Source: Lachnospiraceae bacterium
Lineage (GTDB): Bacteria > Bacillota > Clostridia > Lachnospirales > Lachnospiraceae
Direction: 5' to 3'
Length of the DNA: 50,688 bases
NCBI GenBank assembly: GCA_017513625.1
Contig: JAFXEW010000025.1
Coordinates: 1-50,688, forward strand
The translations under genes and the position numbers were made by a program. The notes beneath the pieces were generated by a model. It was not told the origin of the DNA and did not search any database. It saw nothing but the letters and a program-made list of their open reading frames with translations. Shown piece by piece: positions 32,123-50,688 of this stretch (position 1 is its first letter; each line of letters begins with the position of its first letter).

Positions 32123-32260
32123 GTCCGCGGGATGTTGACGGAAACAGATTGGTAAAACACATTTTTTTCACAATTCAAACATTGTTTAGAGACATTTGTG
32201 GTTTATTCTGATAAGGATAGTGGAAGCATGGATGAAATTGTGCTGAAAGGAAACATAAGA

Positions 32261-33880: not shown

Positions 33881-35729
33881 GAAAAGGAAGTTTAAATTAT
33901 CTAAAAAGCAGAAACGCATACTGTTGATAGCAGCGGCATGTCTATTGGTACTTGCGGCTTGTTATACTCTTTTTCTGGCCCCCTTGCTACGGGAAGAAAA
34001 GTGGATATTTAAAGAAACGACGGTAGAAAAAGGCACCCTGGTTATGGGTATTACGGAAAGCGGACAGCTGGAATACGGGGTGCAGTCGGTTACCTATGAT
34101 TTGGATTTAAGCATAACGGATGCAGAGGAGTCAGAGGACGAAGAGGAAACTGTCAGTCGTTATCTTGAAATTGAGAGAGTTTATGTAGCTGCGGGACAGC
34201 GGATACAAAAAGGAGATTCGTTGATTGCCTTTTCCAAGGATAGTATTGAGGATGTCCGCAAACTGTTAAACAGTGCGTTGGCTGATGCTAAAGTTGCCCG
34301 CAGCGAAGCGCAGTCGGAGTATGATTTGGCCGTATTGGAAGCGCAGTCTGATTATAAAGCAAAAACCAAGGCTGCTGAATACGCAAAAGAAACTTATTCT
34401 AATACAAAAGCAACCATTGAAAATGAAATTCTTTCCCTGCAACTGCAGATTACTAAGAGCCAAAATCAGGTGGAAAGTCTGGAAGATAATGTAGACACGG
34501 CTCAGGAAAACTTTAATGAGGCAGAGCAGGCCTATTTGGAAGCCAAGAACAGTCTGGAACAGGCAGACCCTCAGAATGCACCATGGTATCGCGTAGTATT
34601 ACAGGGGTATAACAGTGCACGGACAAAATATGATAATGCCCTGTCTTCTCTGGACCGTGCAAAGCAGTCTTTGTCAGATAACGGAGTCCGGATTACTAAG
34701 CTGCAGACTCAATTGGCTAATGCTAAGGCGGCTAGGGAAATAAATAATCTGACTGCAGAAGAAAACTATCAGACCGCATTGCTGGAAGGCGAAAATGCAG
34801 CTATTTTGTATGATGCGGAACTGGAGAGTTTGAAGAGCACTTTGGAAGAGGCGCAGAGCAAAGAGCAGGAAATCAGTGAGCAGATAAATGCCTTTGAAAC
34901 CTTTGTGGGAGAAAAAGGTATATTATACGCAGAGGAATCAGGAATTGTGACAGAAATGGTTTATGAGGCCGGAGATGAGCTGGTAAACAAGGGGACGATA
35001 TTGTCTTATGCCACGATGGATGCCATGACCATATCAGTGGATGTTACCCAGGAGGATGTAGTGGATTTGAAAGTGGGCGACAAGGTGGATATTCTCTTTT
35101 CAGCCTACGGAGAGAAGGAGTTTGGCGGAACCATTTTAGAGATTGATACTACAGCAACTTCCCGTAACAGTAATACGGTAAGCTATCCTGTACTAATCGG
35201 AGTAGAAGGTGAGACTACACTTCTGTACGGCGGAATGACGGCGGACATTACCTTTGCGAAAGAGAAAAAGGATGATGTGTTATATGTATCCCGTAATGCA
35301 GTTGTAGAGGAAAACGGTAAGTCCTATGTATATATCCGTCAGGATAAAAATGCCAGAAAGCAGGTGGAAACAGGACTTAGAAACGGTGTCTACGTGGAAA
35401 TTCTTTCCGGTTTGGAAAAGGGTGACGTGATATATATTGCCAGTGTAGTCAGTTCGCTGGAGGATGTGGAAAAGCAGCAGGATAAGGGAAGCGCTACGCA
35501 AGATGGTAACAGCGGATTTTCACCGGAGAATTTTATGAATGGTAATATGGATTTTGGTGATATGGAATTCCCCGGAGGTATGGAAATGCCTGATATGGGA
35601 AATATGCCGGGCGGAGGTATGCCTGATATTGGAAACATGCCGGGTGGAGGTATGCCTGATATGAGCGGCAGACCGGGAGGAAATGAAGGAAGCGGAAGCA
35701 GAGGTCCGGGAAGGAGGAACAGTCAATGA
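33867..35729 (+). CDS. membrane-fusion adaptor 2 with Met/Gly-rich tail
   Basis: A 620-residue adaptor with an N-terminal helix (RILLIAAACLLVLAACYTLFL), lipoyl-like strands (YVAAGQRIQKGDSLIAFSK), a coiled coil of about 220 residues, then SGIVTEMVYEAGDELVNKG and a membrane-proximal domain (VSRNAVVEENGKSYVYIR). The last about 60 residues repeat GNMPGGGMPD with Met every few residues. The start is set by ggaggtgtaacag before the ATG. It overlaps the third adaptor gene by 4 bases (ATGA). In the Gram-positive envelope such adaptors reach into the wall and gate export by MacB-like permeases. Confidence 0.9.
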   Translation: MVSSKKRKFKLSKKQKRILLIAAACLLVLAACYTLFLAPLLREEKWIFKETTVEKGTLVMGITESGQLEYGVQSVTYDLDLSITDAEESEDEEETVSRYLEIERVYVAAGQRIQKGDSLIAFSKDSIEDVRKLLNSALADAKVARSEAQSEYDLAVLEAQSDYKAKTKAAEYAKETYSNTKATIENEILSLQLQITKSQNQVESLEDNVDTAQENFNEAEQAYLEAKNSLEQADPQNAPWYRVVLQGYNSARTKYDNALSSLDRAKQSLSDNGVRITKLQTQLANAKAAREINNLTAEENYQTALLEGENAAILYDAELESLKSTLEEAQSKEQEISEQINAFETFVGEKGILYAEESGIVTEMVYEAGDELVNKGTILSYATMDAMTISVDVTQEDVVDLKVGDKVDILFSAYGEKEFGGTILEIDTTATSRNSNTVSYPVLIGVEGETTLLYGGMTADITFAKEKKDDVLYVSRNAVVEENGKSYVYIRQDKNARKQVETGLRNGVYVEILSGLEKGDVIYIASVVSSLEDVEKQQDKGSATQDGNSGFSPENFMNGNMDFGDMEFPGGMEMPDMGNMPGGGMPDIGNMPGGGMPDMSGRPGGNEGSGSRGPGRRNSQ

Positions 35730-37495
35730 CGGGTAGAGTAAAAAATCTTTTTTCCGGATGGAAGTGCAGCAGGAGAATGCTTCTTCTTTTGATTGTGGGT
35801 ATTTTATTAGCGGTAGCAGTAATTGCAATAACTGTTACACGGAACAATCAGAGTGTTGAAATAGTATACAAAGAGACACCTGTCAGTTTTGGGTCTCTGG
35901 CAGTGGGAATTACGGAAAGCGGCAGCGTGGATATTGGTGTTACCCAGCAGCTTTTTGAACTGGATATGAGTGCTTTGCAGCGGGTAGATACAGGAAATCT
36001 GGGTAATTCTTCCCAGTCCGGCAGCAATAGCATGTCAGCCGGAATGGGAGGCCCTATGTCCGGCGGTGGTGCAATGGGCGGAAGCAGTATGCCCGGCGGA
36101 GGTTCCTTTAATGGATTTTCCCAGATGTTTAACATATTGGGCGGAAATACCTTTGTAAATAGTGGCGAGGATTCCAGCCTTGTGGTTTCACGGGTAGTAG
36201 TGTCTTCCGGACAGCAGGTTAGAATAGGTGACGTGCTCTATGAATTGGAGGAGGAGAGCGTGCTGGAGCTGGAAAAAGAGCTACAGTCCAATGTAGATCT
36301 GGCCAAGTCCGACCTGGAAGCAGTATATGCGGACCGGAAACTCTCTAAACAGACTGCGGAATATACCTATGAGACCAGTAAGGCATATGGAAGTTACAGT
36401 GCCACGGAATATCAGTCTACCATCAGTAGTTATACTGATGCGGTGGCAGATGCAGAAAAGAGTCTCGCCTCAGCTGAAAATAACCTGACACTTCAGGAGG
36501 CAGCGCTGACTGAAGCGCGCGGTTTGTATGAAGGTGCATTAACCGTATATAATGGCAGTGTTTGGTCCAGGGACCATACGGATAAGTATCAGGACACATA
36601 TCTGTATGTGGAATATTTTAATCAGGCCAAGAGCGACTATAATACAGTGGAATCCATGGCCAATAAGGTCAGCCAGTTAGAAGAGAAGGTGGAGCAGGCC
36701 AAGGATAATCTGGACACTGCCCGGAAAAATTTAAGTAAGGCCAAGCGCCAACAGGAGCAGGGGATATTATCCGCAAAGAAAACAAAAGCCTTGCGTGAGC
36801 TGGCTGATGAAACGGCGGCAGAAACCCGGGACATTTCACTGGCTTATCTGGAAGAGGAAGTAAGTGAACAGGAAGAGGTCTATGCACGGGCAAAGGAAAA
36901 ATGGGAGGAATACAGTTCTCATATAAACGGTACACAGATTCTTGCCGGATACAACGGTGTGATAACAGAAGTTGGACTGCAGGAGGGAGATTCCCTGAGC
37001 ACCAATCAAATGTTAATCACCTTGTATAATAATGATGATGTAACGATGACAGTAACTGTAGCGGAAGAAGATATGAGCGGTATAGCTGTGGGGTCCAAGG
37101 CAAGAGTGGACTTGATTGCTTATCCAGAGGAAATATTTGAAGCTGAAGTAACTGAGATTTCTGATGCTACCACGGATTCAAAGGGGAACGTGGTGTATGA
37201 AGTGACGGCTACTCTCCGTGGCGACATGTCAGGATTATTTCAGGGTATGACGGGAGAGGTGACTTTTATTTCCGAAGAGGTAAAGGATGTACTGTATGTA
37301 AATAAACGTGCAGTAATCACAGAAGGCGACAACTCGTATGTAAAAGTAAAATCTCCGGATGGTAATGTTTCCAAAAGAAAGATTACCGTAGGATTTAGTG
37401 ACGGCAGAAATGTTGAAGTGTTGGAAGGCCTGAATGAGGGTGAAATTGTACTAATAGAAAATAAGATAGTGGCCCAAGGGCAGAATGAGAGGTAG
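35726..37495 (+). CDS. membrane-fusion adaptor 3 with Gly/Met-rich insert
   Basis: A 589-residue adaptor: N-terminal helix (MLLLLIVGILLAVAVIAITV), then a Gly/Met/Ser-rich insert (about 98-131, SAGMGGPMSGGGAMGGSSMP) placed before the first lipoyl half (VVSSGQQVRIGDVLYELEEE), a coiled coil, and the second half (YNGVITEVGLQEGDSLS). A C-terminal domain with VNKRAVITEGDNSYVKVK follows. It differs from the other two in carrying the low-complexity part near the N-terminus. The permease gene follows at once. Confidence 0.9.
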   Translation: MTGRVKNLFSGWKCSRRMLLLLIVGILLAVAVIAITVTRNNQSVEIVYKETPVSFGSLAVGITESGSVDIGVTQQLFELDMSALQRVDTGNLGNSSQSGSNSMSAGMGGPMSGGGAMGGSSMPGGGSFNGFSQMFNILGGNTFVNSGEDSSLVVSRVVVSSGQQVRIGDVLYELEEESVLELEKELQSNVDLAKSDLEAVYADRKLSKQTAEYTYETSKAYGSYSATEYQSTISSYTDAVADAEKSLASAENNLTLQEAALTEARGLYEGALTVYNGSVWSRDHTDKYQDTYLYVEYFNQAKSDYNTVESMANKVSQLEEKVEQAKDNLDTARKNLSKAKRQQEQGILSAKKTKALRELADETAAETRDISLAYLEEEVSEQEEVYARAKEKWEEYSSHINGTQILAGYNGVITEVGLQEGDSLSTNQMLITLYNNDDVTMTVTVAEEDMSGIAVGSKARVDLIAYPEEIFEAEVTEISDATTDSKGNVVYEVTATLRGDMSGLFQGMTGEVTFISEEVKDVLYVNKRAVITEGDNSYVKVKSPDGNVSKRKITVGFSDGRNVEVLEGLNEGEIVLIENKIVAQGQNER

Positions 37496-37496
37496 T

Positions 37497-38915
37497 ATGA
37501 GAATATCTGAAATATTTCGATTGGTTTATCTGAATCTCTCCCAAAATAAATTTAAGGTTATTCTTACCTCCATCGGTATTGTAGTGGGTTCTGCCACCAT
37601 TATGCTGGTATTGGCTATCGGTATGGGCGGCCGTGCGGAAGTGGCAGAGCAGTTCAAGAATTTGAATGCAGGCGCTATTGATATATCCTATGGCGGACAG
37701 GGTAGCTTTGACATGGACAGCTTTATGAGCGGGGCTATGGGTAATCCTTTTGGCGGGCAAGGTTCGTCACGGGGAAACAGTGGCAGAGGAAATGGTTCAA
37801 CAGGATTTCCCGGAGGCAGTGCAGGCGGTTTCAGCGGCGGAGTTCCCGGTAATGTCGGCGGATTTAGTGGAGGCACTTTTCCCGGTGGCGGAAGTAACGG
37901 ACAGCAAAAATCTAATCCCTTTGGAGGACGCAGTTCCGGAGATGAGGTGATTCTGACTACAGCAGACTGCGAGGAGCTGGAATTGTTTGTGGCGGGAATC
38001 ACTGACACTACCATTTCCTATTCCTCCAAGGCATCGTTGGAAGGAGGAGAGCTGGAAAGCGCCACTTCCTATACTGTGGCAGGTGTACGGAGCAATTACG
38101 CCGGTATCAGCAATCTGAAAATGACTATCGGTAATTTTTTGACCGATGAACAGGATGAAAGCAAAGAAAAAGTATGCGTACTGGGCATGAGCGTAGCCAG
38201 AGAGATTTTTGGCAGTGCTTATGCGGCTTATGACGGTAGTGTATATATCGACGGCAGACCTTATGTAGTAACGGGGGTATTGGCCGAAATGGGTACCGTA
38301 GCATCCGGTATCAGTCCTGATACTGCTGTATTTGTGCCTTATGAAACAGGTATTAAATACGTTACAGGTCCTTCTATCAGCCCTACCGTTACAGTTATTG
38401 CAGCAGATGTAAACAGCGTTGACCGGGTAATGGCGGATGTGGAAACGGTACTTGCTGACAGCTACGAAGGAGTAACCTTTAATATCTCAGATGCAGGAAC
38501 CAAGATGGAGGCTGCGTCGGCTTCTAACGAAACACTTACCTGGCTGTTGGTATCCATGTCTGTAATTGTATTTATTGTAGGCGGTATCGGTATCATGAAT
38601 GTTTTATTCCTGTCCGTCAAGGAACGTACCAATGAAATCGGTATTTTAAAGGCGGTGGGATGTTCCAGAAAGGATATTCTGATTGAGTTTCTGATGGAAG
38701 CTTCCTGCATCAGTTTTATCGGTGCGGTCATTGGGGTATTGCTGGCATTGGCGGTGACACCTTTAGTGGAGCTTTTTTCCGTACGGGTGGAGCTGACAGT
38801 ATCCGGTGCCCTGTTGTCCCTGTTGTTTGGCGTAGTTACGGGTACATTGTTTGGTTTACAGCCTGCCTATAGGGCTTCACGTCTGATTCCCGTAGTAGCG
38901 TTAAATCAGGAATAG
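37497..38915 (+). CDS. MacB/FtsX-type ABC transporter permease with Gly-rich insert
   Basis: About 472 residues from ATG 37497 (gagaggtag upstream; ATG 37485 also possible). One helix lies at the N-terminus (FKVILTSIGIVVGSATIMLV) and three near the C-terminus, with MNVLFLSVKERTNEIGILKA and RASRLIPVVALNQE as FtsX/MacB marks. The large extracytoplasmic domain begins with a low-complexity stretch of about 80 residues rich in Gly, Ser, Phe and Pro (GGFSGGVPGNVGGFSGG), not part of usual MacB permeases. It works with the ATPase downstream and the adaptors upstream. Cargo unknown; peptides or small molecules are typical. Confidence 0.92.
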   Translation: MRISEIFRLVYLNLSQNKFKVILTSIGIVVGSATIMLVLAIGMGGRAEVAEQFKNLNAGAIDISYGGQGSFDMDSFMSGAMGNPFGGQGSSRGNSGRGNGSTGFPGGSAGGFSGGVPGNVGGFSGGTFPGGGSNGQQKSNPFGGRSSGDEVILTTADCEELELFVAGITDTTISYSSKASLEGGELESATSYTVAGVRSNYAGISNLKMTIGNFLTDEQDESKEKVCVLGMSVAREIFGSAYAAYDGSVYIDGRPYVVTGVLAEMGTVASGISPDTAVFVPYETGIKYVTGPSISPTVTVIAADVNSVDRVMADVETVLADSYEGVTFNISDAGTKMEAASASNETLTWLLVSMSVIVFIVGGIGIMNVLFLSVKERTNEIGILKAVGCSRKDILIEFLMEASCISFIGAVIGVLLALAVTPLVELFSVRVELTVSGALLSLLFGVVTGTLFGLQPAYRASRLIPVVALNQE

Positions 38916-38936
38916 GGGAAGAAAGGAGCATAGCCA

Positions 38937-39602
38937 ATGATTCGAATGACAGGAATAAATAAAGGATATATGTTGGGAGAGGAAAAACTTCCCATTCTCA
39001 AAAATATAAATTTTACCGTGGAAAAGGGAGAATATGTAGCCATTCTGGGTCCCTCGGGTTCGGGAAAAACCACCCTGATGAATATTGTGGGTTGTATGGA
39101 TGAGATGGATTCGGGAGAATATTATCTGGACGGTTTGGCCGTGCATGAAACACCACAGGATGGATTAACGGAGATACGAAACAAAAAGATAGGTTTTATT
39201 TTTCAAAACTATCAATTGATTCCTACCTATAACATTCTTCAGAATATTGTAATGCCTTTATTGGCAAGGGGTATGACATATGGAGAGGCGGAAGCAGCCT
39301 GTATGAATACCATTGAACTGTTGGGACTGACCAACAGAATCAGTCATAAGCCCGGCGAATTGTCCGGCGGACAAAAACAAAGGGTGTCCATTGCCAGGGC
39401 ATTGGTGGGGCGTCCGTCCATTTTGCTTGCAGATGAACCTACGGGAGCGCTGGACCAAAGCAGTGGAAAGGATGTACTCAGATTATTCAGGGAATTAAAC
39501 GATATGGGTCATACCATCGTAATGATTACCCATGATTCACAGGTAGCGAAGTCTGCCGGCCGGATTGTAAGAATCGTTGATGGTGAATTGTACGAAGACT
39601 GA
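38937..39602 (+). CDS. MacB/LolD-type ABC transporter ATPase
   Basis: A 221-residue ATPase: Walker A GPSGSGKTT, Q-loop IFQNYQLIPTY, signature LSGGQKQRVSIARAL, Walker B ILLADEPTGALD and switch His in ITHDSQ. It powers the adjacent FtsX-type permease. A gaaaggag site precedes it, and it ends the five-gene unit. Confidence 0.96.
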   Translation: MIRMTGINKGYMLGEEKLPILKNINFTVEKGEYVAILGPSGSGKTTLMNIVGCMDEMDSGEYYLDGLAVHETPQDGLTEIRNKKIGFIFQNYQLIPTYNILQNIVMPLLARGMTYGEAEAACMNTIELLGLTNRISHKPGELSGGQKQRVSIARALVGRPSILLADEPTGALDQSSGKDVLRLFRELNDMGHTIVMITHDSQVAKSAGRIVRIVDGELYED

Positions 39603-41484: not shown

Positions 41485-42384
41485 ATGGGCCTGAAAATTG
41501 AGAACTTAACCAAAACATATGGTGATTTCACGGCATTAAACAGTATTTCCTTAGAAGCAGAAAATGGAAAGATACTTGGAATATTAGGAAGAAACGGTGC
41601 CGGTAAGACCACCACCATCAAAAGCATTATGGGAATCATCGAACCGGACAGCGGGACAATTACATTTGACGGCAAAGACATCAGAAAGGCGGACGTATCC
41701 ATCGGATATTTGCCGGAGGAAAGAGGTCTTTATGTAAACGCCGTAGTCAAAGATCAGCTTTTATATTTTGCCATGCTCAACGGTATGGATAAAAAGAAAG
41801 CTATGGATGAAATCAAGAGATTGCTGGAAGTGTTTAAGATTCCCGGATATCTGAACAAGAAGGTAAAAACCCTCTCCAAGGGTAACAAGCAGAAAATTCA
41901 GTTAATCAGTGCAATTCTTCACAAGCCTCAGATAGTAATTCTGGACGAGCCCTTCAGCGGATTGGACCCGGTCAATATCGAGCTGTTTAAAAATACTGTA
42001 TTGAATCTCCGTAAGGAAGGTGCCACGATTTTGTTCAGTAGTCACAGAATGGAAGATGTGGAAGAAATGTGTGACCGCATCGTAATGCTCAATAAGGGTA
42101 ATGTGGTAGAGAACAATACTGTGAAGGGTCTGATTGACAAGTATTCCAGAGAAGATGTGATGAATGTGGTGACTAATGCAGACATTACTGCATTGGTGGT
42201 TGAAAACGGACTGTTCCTGGAAAAGGCAGAGGGCACGAGCTTTGATATTAAGTTCAACAATACGGCGGAGATACAGTCCCTTTACAAAAAAATACTGGAT
42301 GCAGGTATTGAGATTTGTGAAATCCGTAGCAGAAAAACAACCTTACAGGAAATCTTTATAAAGGAGTTGGCTGATAATGAATAA
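41485..42384 (+). CDS. RiPP-operon ABC transporter ATPase
   Basis: About 299 residues, starting at ATG 41485, which follows aaggag. Walker A is GRNGAGKTTTIKS, the signature is LSKGNKQKIQLI, Walker B is IVILDEPFSGLDP and the switch His is in SSHRMEDVEE; the C-terminal 70 residues are the regulatory extension of the NatA/DrrA type. It pairs with the ABC-2 permease that overlaps it by 8 bases. As first gene of the RiPP operon it probably exports the mature peptides or gives self-immunity. Confidence 0.94.
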   Translation: MGLKIENLTKTYGDFTALNSISLEAENGKILGILGRNGAGKTTTIKSIMGIIEPDSGTITFDGKDIRKADVSIGYLPEERGLYVNAVVKDQLLYFAMLNGMDKKKAMDEIKRLLEVFKIPGYLNKKVKTLSKGNKQKIQLISAILHKPQIVILDEPFSGLDPVNIELFKNTVLNLRKEGATILFSSHRMEDVEEMCDRIVMLNKGNVVENNTVKGLIDKYSREDVMNVVTNADITALVVENGLFLEKAEGTSFDIKFNNTAEIQSLYKKILDAGIEICEIRSRKTTLQEIFIKELADNE

Positions 42385-43261
42385 TAAAATAGGAAAAGTT
42401 ATATGGTTTACCTTTAAACAGGTAATTACATCAAATTGGTATGCTTTAATATTTATTATGGGTATCGTGGGAGTACTTTTATCCACTCAGTCAGATAAGA
42501 TCATGGGTGCGTTATTTGGAAGTTCAGCATCGGCAGCCGGTCAGGCAGCTACGGTGATGACGGCAAAGGATGCCACATTTATGCTTCAGTTTGTGATTAT
42601 TCTGATACTGTTTTTAATGATACTCGTTTACGGAGCTAATATTGCAAACTCCATTGTTGAGGAAAAGAGCGGACGAATTATTGAAACCTTACTTTGCTAT
42701 GTAAAGCCCTTAGATCTTCTGGCAGGCAAGATTGTAGGTTATCTGCTGGCAATTATTATGGAAATTGCTATCTGGGTTGGATACTATCTGATTCTTGATG
42801 TGTTGTTGGAGCTTCCGGCTAATCCGATTTTTGCAGCATTAGGTGCTTTACAGCCTCAGGTATATGTATTCCTGGCAGCATCCATTATCTTTGGATTTAT
42901 GATGTACGCATTTGCATTTGCGGCGTTGTCCTCTTATGCAGACAATGCACAGGATTCTACCCAGTTGATGTTCCCCGTTACCATCGTTATCATGATCGCA
43001 TATTTCTTAAGTCTGGCAATTATGAACGGAATGGACGGAACCTGGGCACAGATTATTGCAAAAGCACCTTTCTTCTCGCCCATTGTTACATTTGTAACCA
43101 GTGACCTGATTGCACTGACATGGAAGGAAGTAGGAATCAATCTAGCAATCCAGTTGGTAGAAGTGATAGTTGTAGCAGCTATTTGTGCAAAATTTTACAG
43201 ACGCGGAGTTGTAAGCTATGGACTCAAGAAAATGTCATTCAAGAAATTGCTTGGAAAATAA
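42377..43261 (+). CDS. RiPP-operon ABC-2 type permease
   Basis: A 294-residue permease with six helices of the NatB/ABC-2 type (ANSIVEEKSGRIIETLLCYV is the conserved coupling region after helix two). It forms the membrane part of the exporter with the ATPase upstream. Its 3' end overlaps the dehydrogenase gene by 44 bases, so translation of the two is linked. Confidence 0.9.
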   Translation: MNNKIGKVIWFTFKQVITSNWYALIFIMGIVGVLLSTQSDKIMGALFGSSASAAGQAATVMTAKDATFMLQFVIILILFLMILVYGANIANSIVEEKSGRIIETLLCYVKPLDLLAGKIVGYLLAIIMEIAIWVGYYLILDVLLELPANPIFAALGALQPQVYVFLAASIIFGFMMYAFAFAALSSYADNAQDSTQLMFPVTIVIMIAYFLSLAIMNGMDGTWAQIIAKAPFFSPIVTFVTSDLIALTWKEVGINLAIQLVEVIVVAAICAKFYRRGVVSYGLKKMSFKKLLGK

Positions 43262-44000
43262 AAGAACGCTGATTGTGGTAGGTGCTGACAGCAGCATCGG
43301 AGATGTGCTGGTACCGGAGTTAATTGAACAATACGAAGATGTGATTTTAACCGAGGTACCGGCCGCATATGGCGGTTTGGTAGAAAAATACAGGGAATAT
43401 GCAGGGGAAGCGAAGCTGCATTTACAGGAACTGGATGTTCGCAGCAAGGAGCATATTCACAATTTGGAAGTATATATAGACGAGAACGGACTGGTTATTG
43501 ATTCCCTGATTTACCTGGCGGGAATCAATATACTGGCACCGGCACTGGAAGTGACAGAGGATATTTGGGACCGGGTAATGGAGATTAATCTGAAGGGATT
43601 TTTCTTCATGGCCAGAATGGTTGCGAACAATATGATATTAAACGGCGGCGGCAGTATATTGGGGGTTGCATCCCAGCACGGTGTTGTTGCCAATATTGAC
43701 AGGGCTGCGTATTGTGCCAGCAAAGCAGGAATGATTCATCTCGCTAAGGAGTTGGCACTGGAGTGGGCCCGATACGGAATCAGGGTAAATGTTGTATCAC
43801 CCACTATGATTTTATCAGAAAAAAATAAGGATATGTTGGAAGGTGCAAGGGCAAAGAAAGAGTACTTGGCCAAGATACCGTTAAAGAAATATGCAGTTCC
43901 GGAAGACATAAGCGCCGCAATACTGTTTTTGAATTCGGAAAAAGCAGCTATGATGACGGGACAAAATATGATAATAGACGGCGGCTGGACGATTTGCTAG
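43218..44000 (+). CDS. SDR-family dehydrogenase, candidate oxidative decarboxylase
   Basis: A 260-residue short-chain dehydrogenase. The nucleotide motif is GADSSIG (about 23-29), followed by LAGIN (NAG-like), GVASQHG with the catalytic Ser, and Tyr165/Lys169 in YCASKAG; the fold ends in GQNMIIDGGW. The first about 15 residues lie in the overlap with the permease gene; ATG 43218 is the only plausible start (ggag 9 bases upstream). In the known daptide pathway a dehydrogenase oxidises and decarboxylates the precursor's terminal Thr to an aminoketone. Oxidation of the Thr beta-hydroxyl is SDR-type chemistry, so this enzyme is the natural candidate; that assignment is inference. Confidence 0.85.
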   Translation: MDSRKCHSRNCLENKRTLIVVGADSSIGDVLVPELIEQYEDVILTEVPAAYGGLVEKYREYAGEAKLHLQELDVRSKEHIHNLEVYIDENGLVIDSLIYLAGINILAPALEVTEDIWDRVMEINLKGFFFMARMVANNMILNGGGSILGVASQHGVVANIDRAAYCASKAGMIHLAKELALEWARYGIRVNVVSPTMILSEKNKDMLEGARAKKEYLAKIPLKKYAVPEDISAAILFLNSEKAAMMTGQNMIIDGGWTIC

Positions 44001-44012
44001 AAAGGGATAGTT

Positions 44013-45545
44013 ATGTTAAGGGAAGTACTGTATGTAAACATTGGATATGAGAATGGATTATTTGTTTTAAAGAATAATGAAGTATGTTCTGAGATTTCTG
44101 AAGATATTATGGTTAATACACCGTTTTACAATCAGGAAAACAGTTTTGAAGAGTTGCTGGATACCATTTCCATGGAACCGGAAGAAGATATTGTCTTTTC
44201 CTATCATTGCAAAAACCAGAAACTGGTAAGAAAGTTAGCAGCAGTACTGGCTGAGGAATACGGCAAAACAGTGTATCTGGTGAATTCAAATTTGAAAAAT
44301 GCCCTGTGTTACTTGGGCGGTGAAACTATGGTATACATGTTGCAGAGCTATGATGTACTGGAAACCATTAACAGTATAGAACTGGAAGTAGTAGCTCAAA
44401 TCCCCGTCTTGGTCGAGGAGCAGGAAGAGAACCTGCAGGGATATTATGCGGCCATGAAAAATGGCTATGATGCATATATAACAGGCGTTTATCCCGCCGA
44501 TCTGTCCAATACGCTTGCAAAACATGTGGAGTTGGAAGCAGCGGTTGTAGTGGACGATGTAAGCAGATACTTGGATTTGAACGGAGCATTTCTGGTGAAT
44601 GGAGATGCGGAAAATGATATAGAAATACAGGATAAGGAGCACTTTAACCATTTACATACCGTTAAGGAGGATGAAGTACGGTTTGACAGTACAGGATTAT
44701 CCTTTAAAAAGATGGTATGCTCTTACAGTCAATATGCGAAGTGGAAAGAGAGCGGAAAGCTTGATCCCGTATATGACTACTATCTGAAAATAGAGAATGA
44801 GCAGGATTTAAACCTGCTTGCAGAAGAACTGGAAGCATTCAAAGCAGACGGCAAGATGGACACTATTTCCAGACGACTGGTTGATGAGTGCCGCTTGGCT
44901 AACCAGTGCAGCCTGAAGAAGCTTACGAGATACAGGGTTGAAAAGGATGTGGTAAAGCCCTGCATCACATCTGAAAAGACACTTCTGGCATGGCAGGAGG
45001 AGCCTTCCATGCAATTGCTGGAGGCCAACAAATTGTATGACAAGACTATGATACAAAGTAAGTGCGTGGATTGTGATATGAGTGCCGTATGTTCTAAATG
45101 TGCATGTCTGCCGGAAGGAATGAGCAGAGAGACATATTGTGAATTCATACATAAATATCCCTTTGTAGGCGAATATCTGATGAAAAAGAGAATTGTCAAC
45201 TTTTTGGGAAGGTTCAGTAAAGTATTTGAAGGAGACCGGATGGTTGAAATTTCATCCAATATTAGATGCATGGAGTATGAATCCTGCAAAAAAGCAGTGT
45301 ACGGAACACGTAACGTCTATGTGTTTAAAAAGGATGGCAACTATTATGTGTTACACATGCGTAACGGCAATCTGGTCAAGGTGGACAGAAAGTACGTTTT
45401 TTTGATGGAAGCTTGGGCATTGGAAGAGGATATCCAAACTATCGTGCAGCAGGCTGCGATTAAGTATGAGTTGAATGAAGAACAGGCCGGAGCTGTTGTA
45501 AGAGAAGGGTATGAGCAGTTGAGAAAGGCAGGAATCATCGCGTGA
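44013..45545 (+). CDS. SPASM-like Cys cluster and PqqD-like protein, RiPP recognition candidate
   Basis: A 510-residue protein of no named family that I can place with certainty. Residues 1-230 form alpha/beta units without a radical SAM CxxxCxxC motif. Residues 351-376 carry Cys351, 354, 360, 363, 365 and 376 (C-x2-C-x5-C-x2-C-x-C-x10-C), like the SPASM auxiliary Fe-S regions of RiPP radical SAM maturases. The last about 75 residues (YVLHMRNGNLVKVDRKYVFL, then EEDIQTIVQQAAIKYELNEE) follow the PqqD winged-helix pattern that binds RiPP leaders (RRE). It probably recruits the precursors, which share a leader motif, to the dehydrogenase, aminotransferase and methyltransferase. Relatives of the clostridial peptide-maturation protein group TIGR04066 are possible. 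Confidence 0.7.
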   Translation: MLREVLYVNIGYENGLFVLKNNEVCSEISEDIMVNTPFYNQENSFEELLDTISMEPEEDIVFSYHCKNQKLVRKLAAVLAEEYGKTVYLVNSNLKNALCYLGGETMVYMLQSYDVLETINSIELEVVAQIPVLVEEQEENLQGYYAAMKNGYDAYITGVYPADLSNTLAKHVELEAAVVVDDVSRYLDLNGAFLVNGDAENDIEIQDKEHFNHLHTVKEDEVRFDSTGLSFKKMVCSYSQYAKWKESGKLDPVYDYYLKIENEQDLNLLAEELEAFKADGKMDTISRRLVDECRLANQCSLKKLTRYRVEKDVVKPCITSEKTLLAWQEEPSMQLLEANKLYDKTMIQSKCVDCDMSAVCSKCACLPEGMSRETYCEFIHKYPFVGEYLMKKRIVNFLGRFSKVFEGDRMVEISSNIRCMEYESCKKAVYGTRNVYVFKKDGNYYVLHMRNGNLVKVDRKYVFLMEAWALEEDIQTIVQQAAIKYELNEEQAGAVVREGYEQLRKAGIIA

Positions 45546-46354
45546 GTCATTTTTTCGGAGTTTATAAAGATATTAAAGAGCTTAATATTGGAAATGTAAC
45601 TGAACTTGGTATTTATGAGGGGATTTTTTCTACTATCTATGCCAATATGCAGGATACATTCAGAGAACTGAACTATTACATTGAAAACGGTTTGTGTACA
45701 GGTAAAAGGGTATTGGAAATCGCTTGTGGTGATGGCGGTAATTATATGATTCCCATGGCAAAGAAGGGGTTTGAAGTGGATGGAGTGGAAATTTCAGAAT
45801 CTATGATAGAAAGATTTCATGAGCAAACGGCCCGCTTGCCTGAAAAAATAAAGAGCCGGATGAATATTTATCAGGCGAATATCTTTGAATATGATACGGA
45901 TGAAAAATATGACCTGATTACGATCCCGTCCACTACAATCTGCTTGCTGGCAGATGACGAAGAGCAGACCAGGTGCCTTTTCCAAAAGGTATACAAGTGG
46001 CTGAAGCCCGGCGGAAGATTTATGTTTGACTATCGTATCGATCAATCCTTACAGAATGAGTTTATTTCACACATTTACACGGAGACAAATAAGAAATACC
46101 CGTATGTGCTGTTTATGCAGGAGTTTAATAATGTGGTGCCCGGCCGGGGCATTGTAAACATGTATGTGGAAACAATGGAAGATGGTGTGGATAAGAGATA
46201 TATTGCCAGTTCGGATAAGAGGATTATTACTGACGGATTGGTAGAAAGATTGTTGGAAGGAATAGATTTCCGTTTACATAACTCTTATACAGTAGATTTG
46301 ACCAATGCAAAAGTAAAATTGCTTGTATTAGAAAAGGAAGAGGAAAATGAGTAA
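45542..46354 (+). CDS. SAM-dependent methyltransferase, candidate peptide N-methyltransferase
   Basis: A 270-residue class I methyltransferase. Motif I is VLEIACGDGGN (about 57-67), the acidic ribose contact follows in VDGVEIS, and WLKPGGRFMFD is motif III. GTG overlaps the upstream stop by 4 bases, and the gene overlaps the aminotransferase by 8. In daptides the C-terminal amine is dimethylated by a dedicated methyltransferase; this gene's place in the operon makes it the candidate. The specificity cannot be read from sequence. Confidence 0.88.
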   Translation: MSHFFGVYKDIKELNIGNVTELGIYEGIFSTIYANMQDTFRELNYYIENGLCTGKRVLEIACGDGGNYMIPMAKKGFEVDGVEISESMIERFHEQTARLPEKIKSRMNIYQANIFEYDTDEKYDLITIPSTTICLLADDEEQTRCLFQKVYKWLKPGGRFMFDYRIDQSLQNEFISHIYTETNKKYPYVLFMQEFNNVVPGRGIVNMYVETMEDGVDKRYIASSDKRIITDGLVERLLEGIDFRLHNSYTVDLTNAKVKLLVLEKEEENE

Positions 46355-47663
46355 GGGAACCTGGTATCCTTTGTGTAGGCCGGATGATGAAAGGATCAAA
46401 ATAAGACGGACGGAAGGTATCTATCTGTATGATACCAGAGGTAAAGAATATATAGACGCCAATAGTGGTTTGTGGAATGTGCCTCTTGGATATTCCAATC
46501 AGCACATTATGGAACAGTTAGCCGGACAACTGCAGAAAGTACAATATGTAAATGCATGTGAATTTGGTACGGAGGAAGCAGAGGAATTATCCGAGATGCT
46601 ACTGAGTCTGCACCATGATGATATAGAGAAAATAGTATATACATGTACCGGTTCGGAGGCAGTGGAGCTCTCCATTAAGCTGATACGTAAATATGCGGCA
46701 TTAAAGGGAAACGGACACAAAAGAACCATTGCCGTGTTGCAAAATTCCTATCACGGCAGTTATTACGGATCCATGTCCTGCAGTGATTATGACGGTCAGG
46801 AACGTGAGGGCTACGGTCCCCTTTTGGATGGCATTCGGGAGTTGTCTTTGCCGTTTTGTACCTGTTGCAGAAGCGGGCAGGTATCGGATAAGTGTGAGGC
46901 TGCCATGAAAGATAAATTGGAGCAGGAACTGGCTGCTTTCGGAGACAGTCTTGCCGGCATCATAGTGGAACCTATTCTGGGATCTGCAGGTGTAATACCT
47001 TTGCCGGAGTGGTTTTTACGTAGAATTATGGAATTTGCCAAAGAGTATGACACAATCACAGTTTTTGATGAGGTGGCGACCGGCTTTGGCAGAACAGGTA
47101 AGATGTTCTGTTACCAGCACTATGATATGAAACCGGATATTATTACCATGTCCAAGGCAATGAACAACGGTATATTGCCCATCGGTGCAGTGGCAGTTGC
47201 CTCTAAAATAGCAGAGCAGTTCCGTATACATGATGAATTCATCTTTCATCTTTCTACACAGAATGGTAATGCATTGTGTTGTGCGGCAACAAAAGCGACT
47301 ATTGAGGAGCTGCAAAAGAATAACGGTGAACTGTTGGTACACGCACAGGAAATGAGCGACTATTTTGCTGGCAGAATCAGGAACGAATTCATGGAACAGT
47401 TTCCCAGGATATTTGATTTGCGCGGCAGGGGAATGATGTTTGCCATTGATTTGTTGGACAAGGATATGAGTAGGAAAATGAGATTTAATGAGCTGCTGAA
47501 GGTAGTCAATCTGTTAAAGAAGTACGGAGTGATTGCTGAGTGGAGCTATCTGGAAAATCTTACATCCTGTATGGTGATTTTTCTGCCATATATTATTCAA
47601 AAGGAACAAATAGATACTATATTGGAAAAGCTGTTATTAACTTTTAATAGAATGCTTGTGTAA
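46347..47663 (+). CDS. class III PLP aminotransferase, candidate peptide C-terminal transaminase
   Basis: A 438-residue fold-type I class III aminotransferase. The PLP lysine is Lys270 in ITMSKAMNNG; other marks are TGSEAVELSIKL, NSYHGSYYGSMSCS, VEPILGSAGV and FDEVATGFGRTGKMF. Class III enzymes act on omega-amines and ketones, which fits amination of the aminoketone left after Thr decarboxylation. It carries a cysteine-rich insert (LPFCTCCRSGQVSDKC, about 169-184), unusual for the class. The first precursor gene follows after 26 bases. Confidence 0.93.
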   Translation: MSKGTWYPLCRPDDERIKIRRTEGIYLYDTRGKEYIDANSGLWNVPLGYSNQHIMEQLAGQLQKVQYVNACEFGTEEAEELSEMLLSLHHDDIEKIVYTCTGSEAVELSIKLIRKYAALKGNGHKRTIAVLQNSYHGSYYGSMSCSDYDGQEREGYGPLLDGIRELSLPFCTCCRSGQVSDKCEAAMKDKLEQELAAFGDSLAGIIVEPILGSAGVIPLPEWFLRRIMEFAKEYDTITVFDEVATGFGRTGKMFCYQHYDMKPDIITMSKAMNNGILPIGAVAVASKIAEQFRIHDEFIFHLSTQNGNALCCAATKATIEELQKNNGELLVHAQEMSDYFAGRIRNEFMEQFPRIFDLRGRGMMFAIDLLDKDMSRKMRFNELLKVVNLLKKYGVIAEWSYLENLTSCMVIFLPYIIQKEQIDTILEKLLLTFNRMLV

Positions 47664-47689
47664 TGAGTTAAGGGAAAGGAGTACATACA

Positions 47690-47824
47690 GTGAAAGAGTC
47701 AAAGAATTGCAATCTGGCATTTGAAGAAATGGAAGAAGTACAGGAGTTTAGTTTTGGAAGCGTAAGTGTTATGTTGATTTCCGTAACCACTGTATTGTTG
47801 TTAGTGTTTCAGGTAATATTCTAA
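47690..47824 (+). CDS. precursor-like peptide 1, no terminal Thr
   Basis: A 44-residue peptide with a GTG start and an aaaggag site. It shares the leader motif LAFEEMEEVQEF with the other five peptides. The rest (FGSVSVMLISVTTVLLLV and FQVIF) is hydrophobic but ends in Phe instead of Thr, and lacks the Gly-rich pattern. Too short for standard gene finders. It may be an unmodified partner, an immunity or regulatory peptide, or a diverged precursor. Confidence 0.7.
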   Translation: MKESKNCNLAFEEMEEVQEFSFGSVSVMLISVTTVLLLVFQVIF

Positions 47825-47861
47825 TATTTTTTATATGATATTGGGGAAAGGAGGAAGAAGG

Positions 47862-48020
47862 ATGAACAAGAAGAATTCTAAGAAGAATCAGAACGAGCAA
47901 ATCCAGAATAAGAACATGAAGTTCGATGAAATGGAAAAGGCTGAAGAGTTTGGTGTGCAGGATTTTCTGATTGGAGTAGGAGTAGGTGTCGCAATCACTT
48001 CTATTGCTATTATTACCTAG
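47862..48020 (+). CDS. daptide-like precursor 2 (type A)
   Basis: A 52-residue peptide; aaaggagg precedes the ATG at 47862. A charged, Asn/Lys/Gln-rich N-terminus leads to the shared leader motif KFDEMEKAEEFG, then a hydrophobic core VQDFLIGVGVGVAITSIAII ending in Thr. The C-terminal Thr is the residue that daptide enzymes convert. Confidence 0.85.
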   Translation: MNKKNSKKNQNEQIQNKNMKFDEMEKAEEFGVQDFLIGVGVGVAITSIAIIT

Positions 48021-48064
48021 TGATACTAAATACAAAACAGATGATGGAAAGGAGGTGCAAGACA

Positions 48065-48220
48065 ATGGCAGAAAATATGAATGTAGAAAACGAAGTAGCA
48101 GAAAATGTGGCATTTGAGGAAATGGAAAACGCTGAAGAGTTTGGTAATGTAAAAGATTTTCTGACCGGTGTAGGCATCGGTGTTGGTGTTGTTGCCGGTA
48201 TTGTTGCTATAGCCACCTAA
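48065..48220 (+). CDS. daptide-like precursor 3 (type A)
   Basis: A 51-residue peptide with aaaggagg upstream. Leader motif VAFEEMENAEEFG, core NVKDFLTGVGIGVGVVAG followed by IVAIAT. From the leader motif on it matches precursor 5 except at a few positions. Confidence 0.87.
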   Translation: MAENMNVENEVAENVAFEEMENAEEFGNVKDFLTGVGIGVGVVAGIVAIAT

Positions 48221-48247
48221 TATTTTTTAATTAAGGAGAATAAAGAA

Positions 48248-48391
48248 ATGTTTAATAAGAAAAACGAGATCAAAGAAGAGAATACAAAGTACGAAGAGTT
48301 AGAAGTTGCTGAAGAATTTGGTGACGGATGGTTTGCAGCAGGTGTTGCAACCGGTATCGCTATCGGTGTTGGTGTTGTTATCTTTACCTAA
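48248..48391 (+). CDS. daptide-like precursor 4 (type B)
   Basis: A 47-residue peptide with aaggag upstream. Leader KYEELEVAEEFG, core DGWFAAGVATGIAIGVGVVI ending FT. It belongs to the second type, with a Trp-Phe at the core start and an Ala/Gly-rich helix. Confidence 0.87.
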   Translation: MFNKKNEIKEENTKYEELEVAEEFGDGWFAAGVATGIAIGVGVVIFT

Positions 48392-48415
48392 TAAGGCGAG
48401 AAGGAGGAAGTTGAA

Positions 48416-48565
48416 ATGGAGAATAAGGATCAGTTAGTACAGGAAGAAAATGTAGCATTTGAAGAAATGGAAAAGGCTGAAGAGTTTGGTAATGTACAAG
48501 ATTTCCTGACTGGTGTAGGTATTGGTGTAGGCGTTGTTGCCGGTATTGTTGCTATAGCTACCTAA
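48416..48565 (+). CDS. daptide-like precursor 5 (type A)
   Basis: A 49-residue peptide with aaggagg upstream. Leader VAFEEMEKAEEFG, core NVQDFLTGVGIGVGVVAG followed by IVAIAT; near-copy of precursor 3. Confidence 0.87.
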   Translation: MENKDQLVQEENVAFEEMEKAEEFGNVQDFLTGVGIGVGVVAGIVAIAT

Positions 48566-48588
48566 CTATTATTCAAGGAGAAAAGGAT

Positions 48589-48729
48589 ATGTTTAATAAG
48601 AAGAATGAAATCAAAGAAGAAGCAAAATTTGAAGAGTTAGAAGTTGCAGAAGAGTTTTGCGACGGATGGTTTGCAGCAGGTGTTGCAACAGGTGTTGCAA
48701 TCGGTTTAGGCGTTATTGTTTTGACCTAA
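48589..48729 (+). CDS. daptide-like precursor 6 (type B)
   Basis: A 46-residue peptide with aaggag upstream. Leader KFEELEVAEEF, then Cys where the others have Gly, core DGWFAAGVATGVAIGLGVIV ending LT. Near-copy of precursor 4; the Cys at the leader-core border is unique in the set. Confidence 0.87.
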   Translation: MFNKKNEIKEEAKFEELEVAEEFCDGWFAAGVATGVAIGLGVIVLT

Positions 48730-48742
48730 TGTATTGGCTATA

Positions 48743-48777
48743 TTTGTTGTGGTGCATCAGATATGCACCACAACAAA
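48743..48777 (+). promoter_or_regulatory. intercistronic stem-loop after the precursor genes
   Basis: A perfect 15-bp stem (tttgttgtggtgcat at 48743-48757 with its complement at 48763-48777) around a 5-base loop. It has no T-tract, so it is more likely a stabilising or attenuating element that lets precursors be made in excess over the protease downstream. Confidence 0.75.
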
Positions 48778-48794
48778 TGGCTGAAGGAGAGTAA

Positions 48795-49952
48795 ATGAAA
48801 TATAGACATTTGGAAATAGAGTGTATTGATACAAAGCAGTATACAATTAAGAATTTGGCTTCCAGGAGATATGTAAAAATGGGAGCGAGGGAAACCAAGT
48901 ATTTGCTTCAATGTATCGAATGCCCGAAAGATGAATTTAATTTTGAAGATATAGAACAACTGAATCAGGAAGAACAGAAGATTATGGACGAGAAGTTTCA
49001 GGAATGGGGCTTTTTGGATGAAAATCAGGTAATTGAAGAAAAAAAAGATATTACAAAGATTAAAATTTGTGAAATTAATCCTTCTGAGTTCCTGTCAAAG
49101 GTGCCGAGATTTATACAAAATCTCTTTTCTTTCAGAGGTGCATTGTTGATATTGGCTTTGACCGTAGCAGCATTTTACCTTATATTTAAAAATCCGGAGT
49201 TGGTACTAAATACAGCAGTGGAATGTTTGCATATGGCATGGTATGATTACGTGATATTTTATGTGCTGATGGTTTTGACAACAATGCTGCACGAATTCGG
49301 ACATGCAATATGTTGTAACAGAAACGGCGGAAAAGTTAGCTCCATGGGATTGATGCTATTCTTCCTTATGCCCTGCTTTTTCTGTGATGTAAGTGATATT
49401 TACATGTTTAAGAATAAAAAGAAAAGCTTTGGTGTAGCGGTGTCAGGTATAGCAACAAACTATGCCATGGGATTAATCGGTTGTCTGGTGTTCTTTGCAC
49501 TGGCGGCAAACAATATTTATGCGCCGATTCTTTTATTCTACTTTTTTGCAAATATTGGTTTTGTGGTATTTAACCTAATTCCTTTTGTAAAGCTGGACGG
49601 TTATTGGGTGGCTACGGCTTTAATAGATGTGGATAATCTGATGGATAAGAGCATCCTAATGTTTTTTACCGGTCTGATTAAGCCGAGAGAATTAAAGGCA
49701 ATAGCTTGTACAAAGATGAAGAAAGCAATGTTATTTATATATGGTTTCAGTGCTATCATTTTCAGACCGATATTCTGGGTTATCAGCGTATATTCAGCAT
49801 ATGAATTTTTGGATTCCAAGAATTTGGTGTATTTGAGCGGTGTAGTAGTAGGATTTGTATTAGTAGTAATTTATAAAGACATATCGGATCTGTTAAAGAG
49901 ATATGTTGAAATGTATAAAAACCAGAAACAGAGAGTTTTTGGTATGATATAA
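48795..49952 (+). CDS. M50 site-2-type intramembrane metalloprotease
   Basis: A 385-residue membrane protease. After a cytosolic N-terminal part of about 110 residues come six or so helices; the zinc motif is His166-Glu167-x2-His170 in MLHEFGHAI, and the third-ligand region is NLIPFVKLDGYW (N-x2-P-x3-LDG). The site is complete. M50 proteases of this size occur in RiPP clusters, including daptides, where they cut the leader off. The N-terminal part could bind leaders, but no RRE is evident. An aaggagag site precedes the start. Confidence 0.93.
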   Translation: MKYRHLEIECIDTKQYTIKNLASRRYVKMGARETKYLLQCIECPKDEFNFEDIEQLNQEEQKIMDEKFQEWGFLDENQVIEEKKDITKIKICEINPSEFLSKVPRFIQNLFSFRGALLILALTVAAFYLIFKNPELVLNTAVECLHMAWYDYVIFYVLMVLTTMLHEFGHAICCNRNGGKVSSMGLMLFFLMPCFFCDVSDIYMFKNKKKSFGVAVSGIATNYAMGLIGCLVFFALAANNIYAPILLFYFFANIGFVVFNLIPFVKLDGYWVATALIDVDNLMDKSILMFFTGLIKPRELKAIACTKMKKAMLFIYGFSAIIFRPIFWVISVYSAYEFLDSKNLVYLSGVVVGFVLVVIYKDISDLLKRYVEMYKNQKQRVFGMI

Positions 49953-49966
49953 AAGGAGGATTAAAT

Positions 49967-50059
49967 ATGGAGACAGCAGCATTAGCAGCAATTTTTTTAC
50001 TTAGTGTGTCAGCTTTGGCAGTAAGAAACCAGAAGAAAGCAGAAAGCAAAAAGAAGTAA
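49967..50059 (+). CDS. 30-residue single-pass peptide in the RiPP operon
   Basis: METAALAAIFLLSVSALAV followed by a basic tail (RNQKKAESKKK). A strong aaaaggagg site precedes the ATG, and a terminator follows the stop, so it is the last gene of the operon. It lacks the leader motif and terminal Thr of the precursors. It could be an immunity peptide or a protease subunit; unknown. Confidence 0.7.
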   Translation: METAALAAIFLLSVSALAVRNQKKAESKKK

Positions 50060-50181: not shown

Positions 50182-50688
50182 ATGTCTTATCAAGTGGGAT
50201 TTTGCGATGACGAAGTATACCAGATTAAGGTAAACAGTCTGTTTGTAAAAGAAATTGCAGAGAAAAATAATTATGACCTGGAATATCACGGGTTCCAGAG
50301 CGGGAAGCAGCTCAGAAATTATCTGGAGACCAAGACGTTGGATATATTGTTTCTGGATATTGATTTGGGAGATGAAACGGGTATTGAAATAGCTACCTGG
50401 GTTGCCAAGAATCATCCCCACATCATTACAGTGTTCGTCACCGGACACAGAGAGTTTGCGGAGGAAGCATTTGCGGTTGAGGCTGTAGGATATCTGGTAA
50501 AACCCTATGATATCAAAAAGATGGAAAGCACCATGAAAAGAGTAATGAGTCAGCTGGATAAGAAAGAAGAACCGCAGGAGGATTACGGTCTGATTATTAC
50601 GGATGAGAATCTGAAGAAAAAAATTGATATCCGTGATATTTTGTATATCGAGCGGCAGCAGGCCAAGAGTATCATTGTGACTCAGGAG
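50182..50688 (+). CDS. LytTR-family response regulator (partial, cut by window end)
   Basis: The first 169 residues of a response regulator. The receiver domain (1-125) has FCDDE at the acidic pocket, the phosphoacceptor Asp in DILFLDIDLG, the Thr in FVTGH and the Lys in YLVKPYD. The start of a LytTR DNA-binding domain follows (RDILYIERQQAKSIIV). AgrA/LytR-type regulators often control peptide gene clusters with a partner sensor kinase, here presumably beyond the edge. An agggaag site supports the start. Confidence 0.92.
   Translation, partial: MSYQVGFCDDEVYQIKVNSLFVKEIAEKNNYDLEYHGFQSGKQLRNYLETKTLDILFLDIDLGDETGIEIATWVAKNHPHIITVFVTGHREFAEEAFAVEAVGYLVKPYDIKKMESTMKRVMSQLDKKEEPQEDYGLIITDENLKKKIDIRDILYIERQQAKSIIVTQE

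Follow-up and report, generated by a model that had tools for sequence, protein, structure and literature searches.

A probable daptide-type operon in the window

Contig JAFXEW010000025.1 of a Lachnospiraceae bacterium (assembly GCA_017513625.1), analyzed over the whole stretch of 50,688 nucleotides that is called the window below, raises two questions: which peptide is made by the gene run at positions 41485–49952, and what is the origin of DapB, the accessory protein encoded within this run. We consider with good confidence that its 13 genes form a daptide-type operon for ribosomally synthesized and post-translationally modified peptides (RiPPs), in which the C-terminal Thr would be converted to a dimethylated amine, and that DapB, which lacks the CxxxCxxC motif, is a predicted scaffold that likely originates from a cobalamin-binding radical S-adenosylmethionine (radical-SAM) enzyme.

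According to the open reading frame (ORF) list and the sequence, all 13 genes are located on the + strand in a single run with short gaps or overlaps. A GGAG-type site precedes most of the starts, including those of all six peptide genes. The ATP-binding cassette (ABC) exporter is represented by the ATPase DapT1 (41485–42384; PF00005, E 2e-29) and the ABC-2 permease DapT2 (42377–43261; PF12698, E 1.2e-19). These are followed by DapC (43218–44000), a short-chain dehydrogenase/reductase (SDR) predicted to be the oxidative decarboxylase of the C-terminal Thr; DapB (44013–45545), a 510-aa DUF-RRE protein with a RiPP recognition element (RRE), predicted from homology tests and a structure model to bind the leader; the SAM-dependent methyltransferase DapM (45542–46354, GTG start); the class III aminotransferase DapD (46347–47663); six small peptides; and the M50 intramembrane protease DapP (48795–49952), the predicted leader peptidase. 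Thus, every component listed in the preliminary description of this DNA (exporter, SDR, PqqD-like protein, methyltransferase, aminotransferase, peptides and M50 protease in one gene run) is present. The seven large genes were found in the same order in a Pseudobutyrivibrio contig (L003), with protein identities of 36–61% (61% for DapT1 and 45% for DapT2) and DapB as the least conserved protein. Since both the gene set and its order are repeated in L003, the arrangement is not due to chance.

The NCBIfam profile search that the preliminary description had proposed gave daptide models as the best matches for three enzymes, although all three scores were under the curated cut-offs: DapM matched NF041820 (daptide_MTase, 109 bits, cut-off 175), DapD matched NF041821 (daptide_amino, 346 bits, cut-off 450) and DapP matched NF041824 (daptide_HExxH, 228 bits, cut-off 300). 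These proteins are therefore divergent. DapM keeps the SAM motif, DapD contains SK at residues 269–270, and DapP contains the HExxH motif (HEFGH at 166) and LDG at 267. DapC, whose gene adjoins that of DapB, belongs to PF13561 (E 1.2e-48) with the catalytic motif S-x12-Y-x3-K at 152–169, and its dependence on NAD(P) is predicted from the sequence. The SDR had been thought to set the operon apart from described clusters. This is not supported, because Ren et al. 2023 (PMC10036551), who list 180 daptide clusters from Bacillota, report that a PF13561 oxidoreductase replaces the actinobacterial iron-dependent alcohol dehydrogenase (iron-ADH) there. An RRE-containing accessory protein is expected of daptide clusters and is present as DapB, which is homologous to the DapB of a cluster passing the daptide cut-offs (L048, from another family of Bacillota). 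Together with weak matches of the precursors to daptide models, these data agree with the earlier assignment to a daptide-type pathway. That assignment is well supported, and we infer the chemistry of the product entirely from the genes.

The route proposed here is drawn by analogy with the pathway reconstituted for actinobacteria. The leader motif F/Y-E-E-M/L-E would be bound by the RRE of DapB, and the C-terminus of the peptide would thereby be offered to DapC, which with NAD+ would oxidize the side-chain alcohol of Thr; the resulting beta-keto acid would lose CO2 to give an aminoacetone ketone. DapD would transaminate this ketone, and DapM would add two methyl groups, so that the computed net shift is about −16.94 Da. 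DapP would then cut off the leader, and DapT1 and DapT2 would export the helices. DapB is assumed to act without radical chemistry. The actinobacterial oxidoreductase MpaC is strict for the C-terminal Thr (Ren et al. 2023, PMC10036551); a peptide without Thr would undergo the same binding and leader removal as the rest, but could not be decarboxylated and would leave with a normal carboxylate.

The end group might also be different. If DapM methylates once or elsewhere, the same enzymes acting on the C-terminal Thr would leave a ketone, a primary amine or a monomethyl amine. Relative to its cut-off, DapM scores lowest among the three enzymes with daptide matches (109 of 175 bits), and in some clusters YcaO enzymes are reported to turn the pathway towards imidazolines (PMC12338566). 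However, no YcaO was found among the seven large proteins of the operon in the NCBIfam and Pfam scans, and DapM has both an intact SAM motif and daptide_MTase as its best NCBIfam match. We regard such a product as improbable, and prefer the dimethylated amine.

Probable relationship of DapB to cobalamin-binding radical-SAM proteins

Apart from the RRE, the daptide accessory protein is described by Ren et al. 2023 (PMC10036551) as having no similarity to any known protein. Three domains can be outlined in the DapB of the window. Residues 1–131 (44013–44405) form a Rossmann-like domain in the place of a cobalamin-binding domain; this assignment is weak, as is the match of residues 17–91 to residues 21–96 of the radical-SAM proteins (P 0.0025), and the fold matches of the domain were mostly unrelated Rossmann-type domains. 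Residues 257–390 (44781–45182) correspond to a Cys-rich SPASM-like domain, and residues 431–510 (45303–45542) to the PqqD-like RRE domain. The structure model was made for protein P0001, which differs from the DapB of the window by one residue (predicted local distance difference test score, pLDDT, 85.6). With the SPASM model TIGR04085, only the DapB of one daptide cluster (L009) gave a match, under the cut-off (E 8e-4, 19.7 of 27 bits), and no other DapB scanned, including that of the window, matched this model. A search of PDB sequences with the DapB profile gave no match. The preliminary description regarded a SPASM/PqqD protein as a distinguishing mark of the operon. The protein is a standard daptide part, but the hint at SPASM was a good one and leads to the radical-SAM relationship.

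This relationship is best seen in the longer DapB proteins of the family to which L048 belongs. DapB of the L048 type was matched in 13 of the 295 genomes of that family, and 10 full-length ORFs of 747–838 aa were obtained (nine were kept by the hhalign filter); three genomes with partial matches, G1126, G1108 and G1135, were left out. In the first of these, the match to a relative of the full-length type (G1126:C7:1257182-1258494) is split into three segments, one of which contains an internal stop, and this relative may be decaying. Two cobalamin-binding radical-SAM proteins, of loci L011 (702 aa) and L012 (710 aa), served as templates. The hhalign comparison of the full-length DapB alignment with these two proteins gave one match of 615 columns with a probability of 99.1, an E-value of 8.5e-19 and a score of 155.1, whereas 50 column-shuffled controls scored 12.0–22.8, and the controls with DapP and with the reversed radical-SAM alignment gave a probability of 0.1. 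Both templates contain the CxxxCxxC motif. It is absent from the DapB sequence of the window, from all 25 DapB rows and from all 10 full-length DapBs, and for this reason DapB is treated here as a relative of radical-SAM enzymes and not as one of them. In addition, L011 and L012 resemble DapB in having the N-terminal domain and a Cys-rich tail, and differ from it by the absence of a PqqD match; the neighbors seen around L011 do not form a daptide cluster. The L011 protein gene (L011:5584-7692, minus strand) adjoins, by eye, a gene resembling polyketide or peptide synthetases.

The shorter proteins are connected through the full-length form. The profile of the 500-aa DapBs matched the 815-aa DapB of L048 with E 3.8e-38, profile positions 141–202 and 236–505 corresponding to residues 390–455 and 526–806. 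Two further models were matched by the L048 protein below their cut-offs, that of actinobacterial MpaB (NF041823, E 1.4e-6, 27.7 bits against a cut-off of 150) and one for radical-SAM peptide maturases (E 2.7e-4, 20 bits against 300). Three Streptomyces MpaBs of 345–360 aa matched the full-length Bacillota DapB over 92 columns (probability 92, E 6.4e-7). The 500-aa profile compared directly with actinobacterial MpaB gave probabilities of 0.9 and 1.9, i.e., no link, and the connection runs via full-length DapB alone.

Several results weigh against descent from a radical-SAM enzyme. The barrel (core) region of full-length DapB, compared alone, gave a probability of 6; a more distant cobalamin-binding radical-SAM protein encoded in L009 gave a probability of 1 against full-length DapB; only one of the 22 DapBs of the 500-aa type matched any NCBIfam radical-SAM model (E 0.043); and the expected position of a barrel remnant in the superposition with anSME disagrees with that in the sequence alignments. 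These data raise the alternative that DapB was never a radical-SAM enzyme and shares only a mobile Cys-rich domain with such proteins. The low barrel probability and the fact that the Cys-rich domain alone is the strongest segment fit this explanation; in the comparison of window-type DapB with radical-SAM proteins, too, the SPASM-like part alone was strong. On the other hand, the full-length DapBs are colinear with the radical-SAM proteins over the N-terminal domain, the middle and the Cys-rich domain in the single 615-column alignment, and for L048, compared as a single sequence, the two flanks that match are 443 positions apart, close to the 445 positions in the radical-SAM protein. A shared mobile domain therefore appears quite improbable to us.

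Judging by the sequence comparisons, the likely ancestor of DapB is a cobalamin-binding radical-SAM enzyme, and its radical centre was lost on the way. The 510-aa form seems to lack about 250–280 residues of the middle part, and we infer an order of loss from a full-length dead form to the 510-aa form and then to the MpaB of 345–360 aa. Since part of the Cys motif of DapB is missing in Pseudobutyrivibrio, a metal cluster is not essential across the whole DapB family. In L009, a gene for a cobalamin-binding radical-SAM protein (L009:6708-8012, + strand; PF02310, PF04055) adjoins that of DapB within the daptide cluster; it perhaps encodes a tailoring enzyme.

A broader reading, to which we give somewhat less than an even chance, would have DapB as a radical-SAM pseudoenzyme of single origin in all phyla, which only holds the peptide and whose length fell from roughly 815 aa to 510 aa in the window clade and to about 350 aa in actinobacteria; the operons of the window clade would in addition encode a fixed set of four peptides, namely three aminated helix types and one that keeps its carboxylate and serves for pairing, silencing or signaling. 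If DapB does descend from a radical-SAM enzyme, the one daptide protein described as unlike anything known would gain an origin, and the need for an accessory protein that binds peptides would gain an explanation open to test. Catalytically dead ThiF-type proteins occur in other RiPP pathways, and DapB would be a further case of an enzyme that now serves only as a scaffold. For DapB, this would also contradict the separate origin of the pathway in each phylum, as read by Ren et al. 2023.

Both the kinship of DapB to cobalamin-binding radical-SAM proteins and the conserved group of Thr-less peptides described below look new. The term SPASM is absent from the main texts of PMC10036551 and PMC12338566, and no title on the origin of DapB or on degenerate radical-SAM proteins in RiPP pathways was found among the open-access papers searched.

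Precursor peptides

Six small ORFs at 47690–48729 encode leader-bearing peptides with the leader F/Y-(E/D)-E-(M/L)-E. As noticed earlier, five of them end in Thr; the first ends in QVIF. The Thr-ended peptides are DapA1 (47862–48020, gamma type, leader FDEME, ending IIT; daptide models E 9.6), DapA2 (48065–48220, beta type, ending IAT; NF041806 daptide_Mpa2, E 0.0011, 18.7 bits, cut-off 40), DapA3 (48248–48391, alpha type, leader YEELE, ending IFT; NF041808, E 0.99), DapA4 (48416–48565, beta type, ending IAT; NF041806, E 0.0013, 18.4 bits, cut-off 40) and DapA5 (48589–48729, alpha type, ending VLT; NF041808 daptide_123, E 0.04, 13.7 bits, cut-off 25).

A profile of ten precursors collected 80 proteins at E 0.1, including 76 Thr-ended peptides, one read-on fusion (P0091) and three Thr-less peptides. 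In a tree of short precursor sequences (no support values printed; P0091, P0111 and P0112 dropped), the Thr-ended peptides form roughly three types, of which alpha and beta are clade-like and gamma is a grade. As sorted by this tree, the order DapA0, gamma, beta, alpha is common to L003 and the window, with the beta–alpha pair repeated in the window. The Thr-ended cores of both loci contain one to three GxxxG motifs each, and the two Thr-less cores contain none. In the family of L048, 43 precursors, all Thr-ended, were found in eight of the nine loci fetched with wide flanks; no precursor was found in the ninth (L069), and one additional pattern match proved spurious. Precursor types recur as tandem blocks in L074 (5499–7092), which has nine precursor genes, and in L075 (13801–15112), which has seven. 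Thr-ended precursors account for both peptides of L009 and for two of the three in another daptide cluster, L010. The third L010 peptide (L010:16091-16231, minus strand) is daptide-like and ends in Cys, and the cluster contains YcaO, ThiF and two M50 proteins; this precursor may feed a different C-terminal chemistry.

The Thr-less peptide DapA0 (47690–47824, GTG start) has a counterpart in the same first position in L003, where it is the first of four leader-bearing peptides. A search seeded with Thr-less peptides yielded 14 proteins, of which 11 were new. Each of them has the leader and EFS(F/L)G, and in no case is Thr the last residue. The missing Thr is partly by design, because Thr-less seeds had been chosen, and the set includes five near-identical variants. 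For eight of the 14, the longest contig is equal in size to that of a DapB or a Thr-ended precursor, which suggests shared contigs. In the tree described above, the Thr-less group is not one clade and forms two branches at the root. The possibility that DapA0 is a decayed precursor was rejected, since the leader and EFS(F/L)G are retained in the 14 proteins. Its role as a required ligand of a neighboring kinase is weakened by L009 and L010, which have the kinase and regulator and in which no DapA0-type peptide was found. DapA0 could be a partner peptide, a self-protection antagonist or a signal. For some mixtures of peptides, Ren et al. 2023 (PMC10036551) observed higher haemolysis, in line with a product of several peptides. 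The conserved Thr-less peptide likewise suggests a defined multi-peptide product and bears on the unsolved function of daptides.

Comparison with known systems and distribution

The Bacillota clusters described in PMC10036551 (Ren et al. 2023) resemble the operon of the window in the PF13561 DapC, the DUF-RRE DapB, a shorter M50 protease and several Thr-ended precursors; no Thr-less precursor like DapA0 is mentioned for them in the main-text passages covered. The mpa cluster of Microbacterium paraoxydans and its actinobacterial kin share the MpaBCDMP order of chemistry and the presence of several precursors, but have an MpaC of the iron-ADH family, and the MpaBs of Streptomyces are only 345–360 aa long. 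L048 shares the PF13561 DapC with the window, and its methyltransferase, aminotransferase, protease and three scanned precursors pass the NCBIfam daptide cut-offs. It differs by the 815-aa DapB, the additional YcaO and ThiF and five precursors, all Thr-ended. Another pathway that uses an SDR as decarboxylase, e.g., the C-terminal processing of thiopeptides, can practically be dismissed: a protein homologous to the Bacillota DapC is used for micrococcin and thiocillin (PMC10036551), but neither YcaO nor a dehydratase was found among the large proteins of the operon, and daptide families give the best matches for its aminotransferase, methyltransferase and protease.

A search of a set of 5.8 billion proteins with DapB (7996 candidates scored) found 26 proteins, including a near-identical copy, of which 22 were aligned. 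A scan of genome contigs gave 42 pattern matches and one relative, the same operon in Pseudobutyrivibrio L003. Among 397 genomes of the family, the DapB profile matched five: that of the window, G024 and G062 (daptide clusters L009 and L010), G166 (a radical-SAM protein) and G276, whose match (E 3.2e-4) lies in a small unrelated protein and was judged to be due to chance. Four of 392 genomes of the order were matched, namely that of the window, G024, G561 (a radical-SAM protein) and G415 (E 4e-4, two stops). In the plasmid collection, neither DapB nor full-length DapB had a match, and DapP matched 72 records; among the 30 listed, those annotated as daptide belong to Streptomyces, and the others are generic M50 proteins or unannotated. 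Three further M50 matches (L049, L050 and L051) were rejected as daptide loci by eye in the stretches fetched.

Genome context and small ORFs

The genome containing the window is an assembly of 2.17 Mb, 82% complete. The GC content of the cluster is 39.9% versus 46.1% for positions 1–41300, and the DapP profile had no match in any of the 24 other genomes drawn from the same genus, several of which are incomplete. On these sequence data, the composition and the missing DapP suggest that the daptide cluster was gained by transfer. Upstream of the operon, at 32198–39602, three membrane-fusion-like proteins, an FtsX-like permease and an ABC ATPase are encoded, as judged by eye; no counterpart of this set was recognized by eye in the L003 stretch.

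Downstream, the operon is followed by a receiver-domain protein (50182–50688, + strand; PF00072, E 2e-16), a response regulator that is incomplete because the contig stops at the end of the window; it may be the regulator of the operon. Genes for a GHKL kinase and a LytTR regulator are located beside L003 (4276–6323), L009 (23–1750) and L010 (2314–4295). Autoinduction of the operon is a guess. When flanking kinases and promoters were viewed by composition only, fewer promoter-like sites were found than in shuffled sequences.

Directly before the response regulator, a small ORF of 30 aa (49967–50059, + strand), hydrophobic except for its basic tail, is preceded by an AAGGAGG site. A guess at its function would be self-protection or an accessory peptide. 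A 32-aa counterpart with a strong ribosome-binding site is located directly after DapP in L003 (14481–14579), and a similar small hydrophobic ORF is present at L003 14798–14899.

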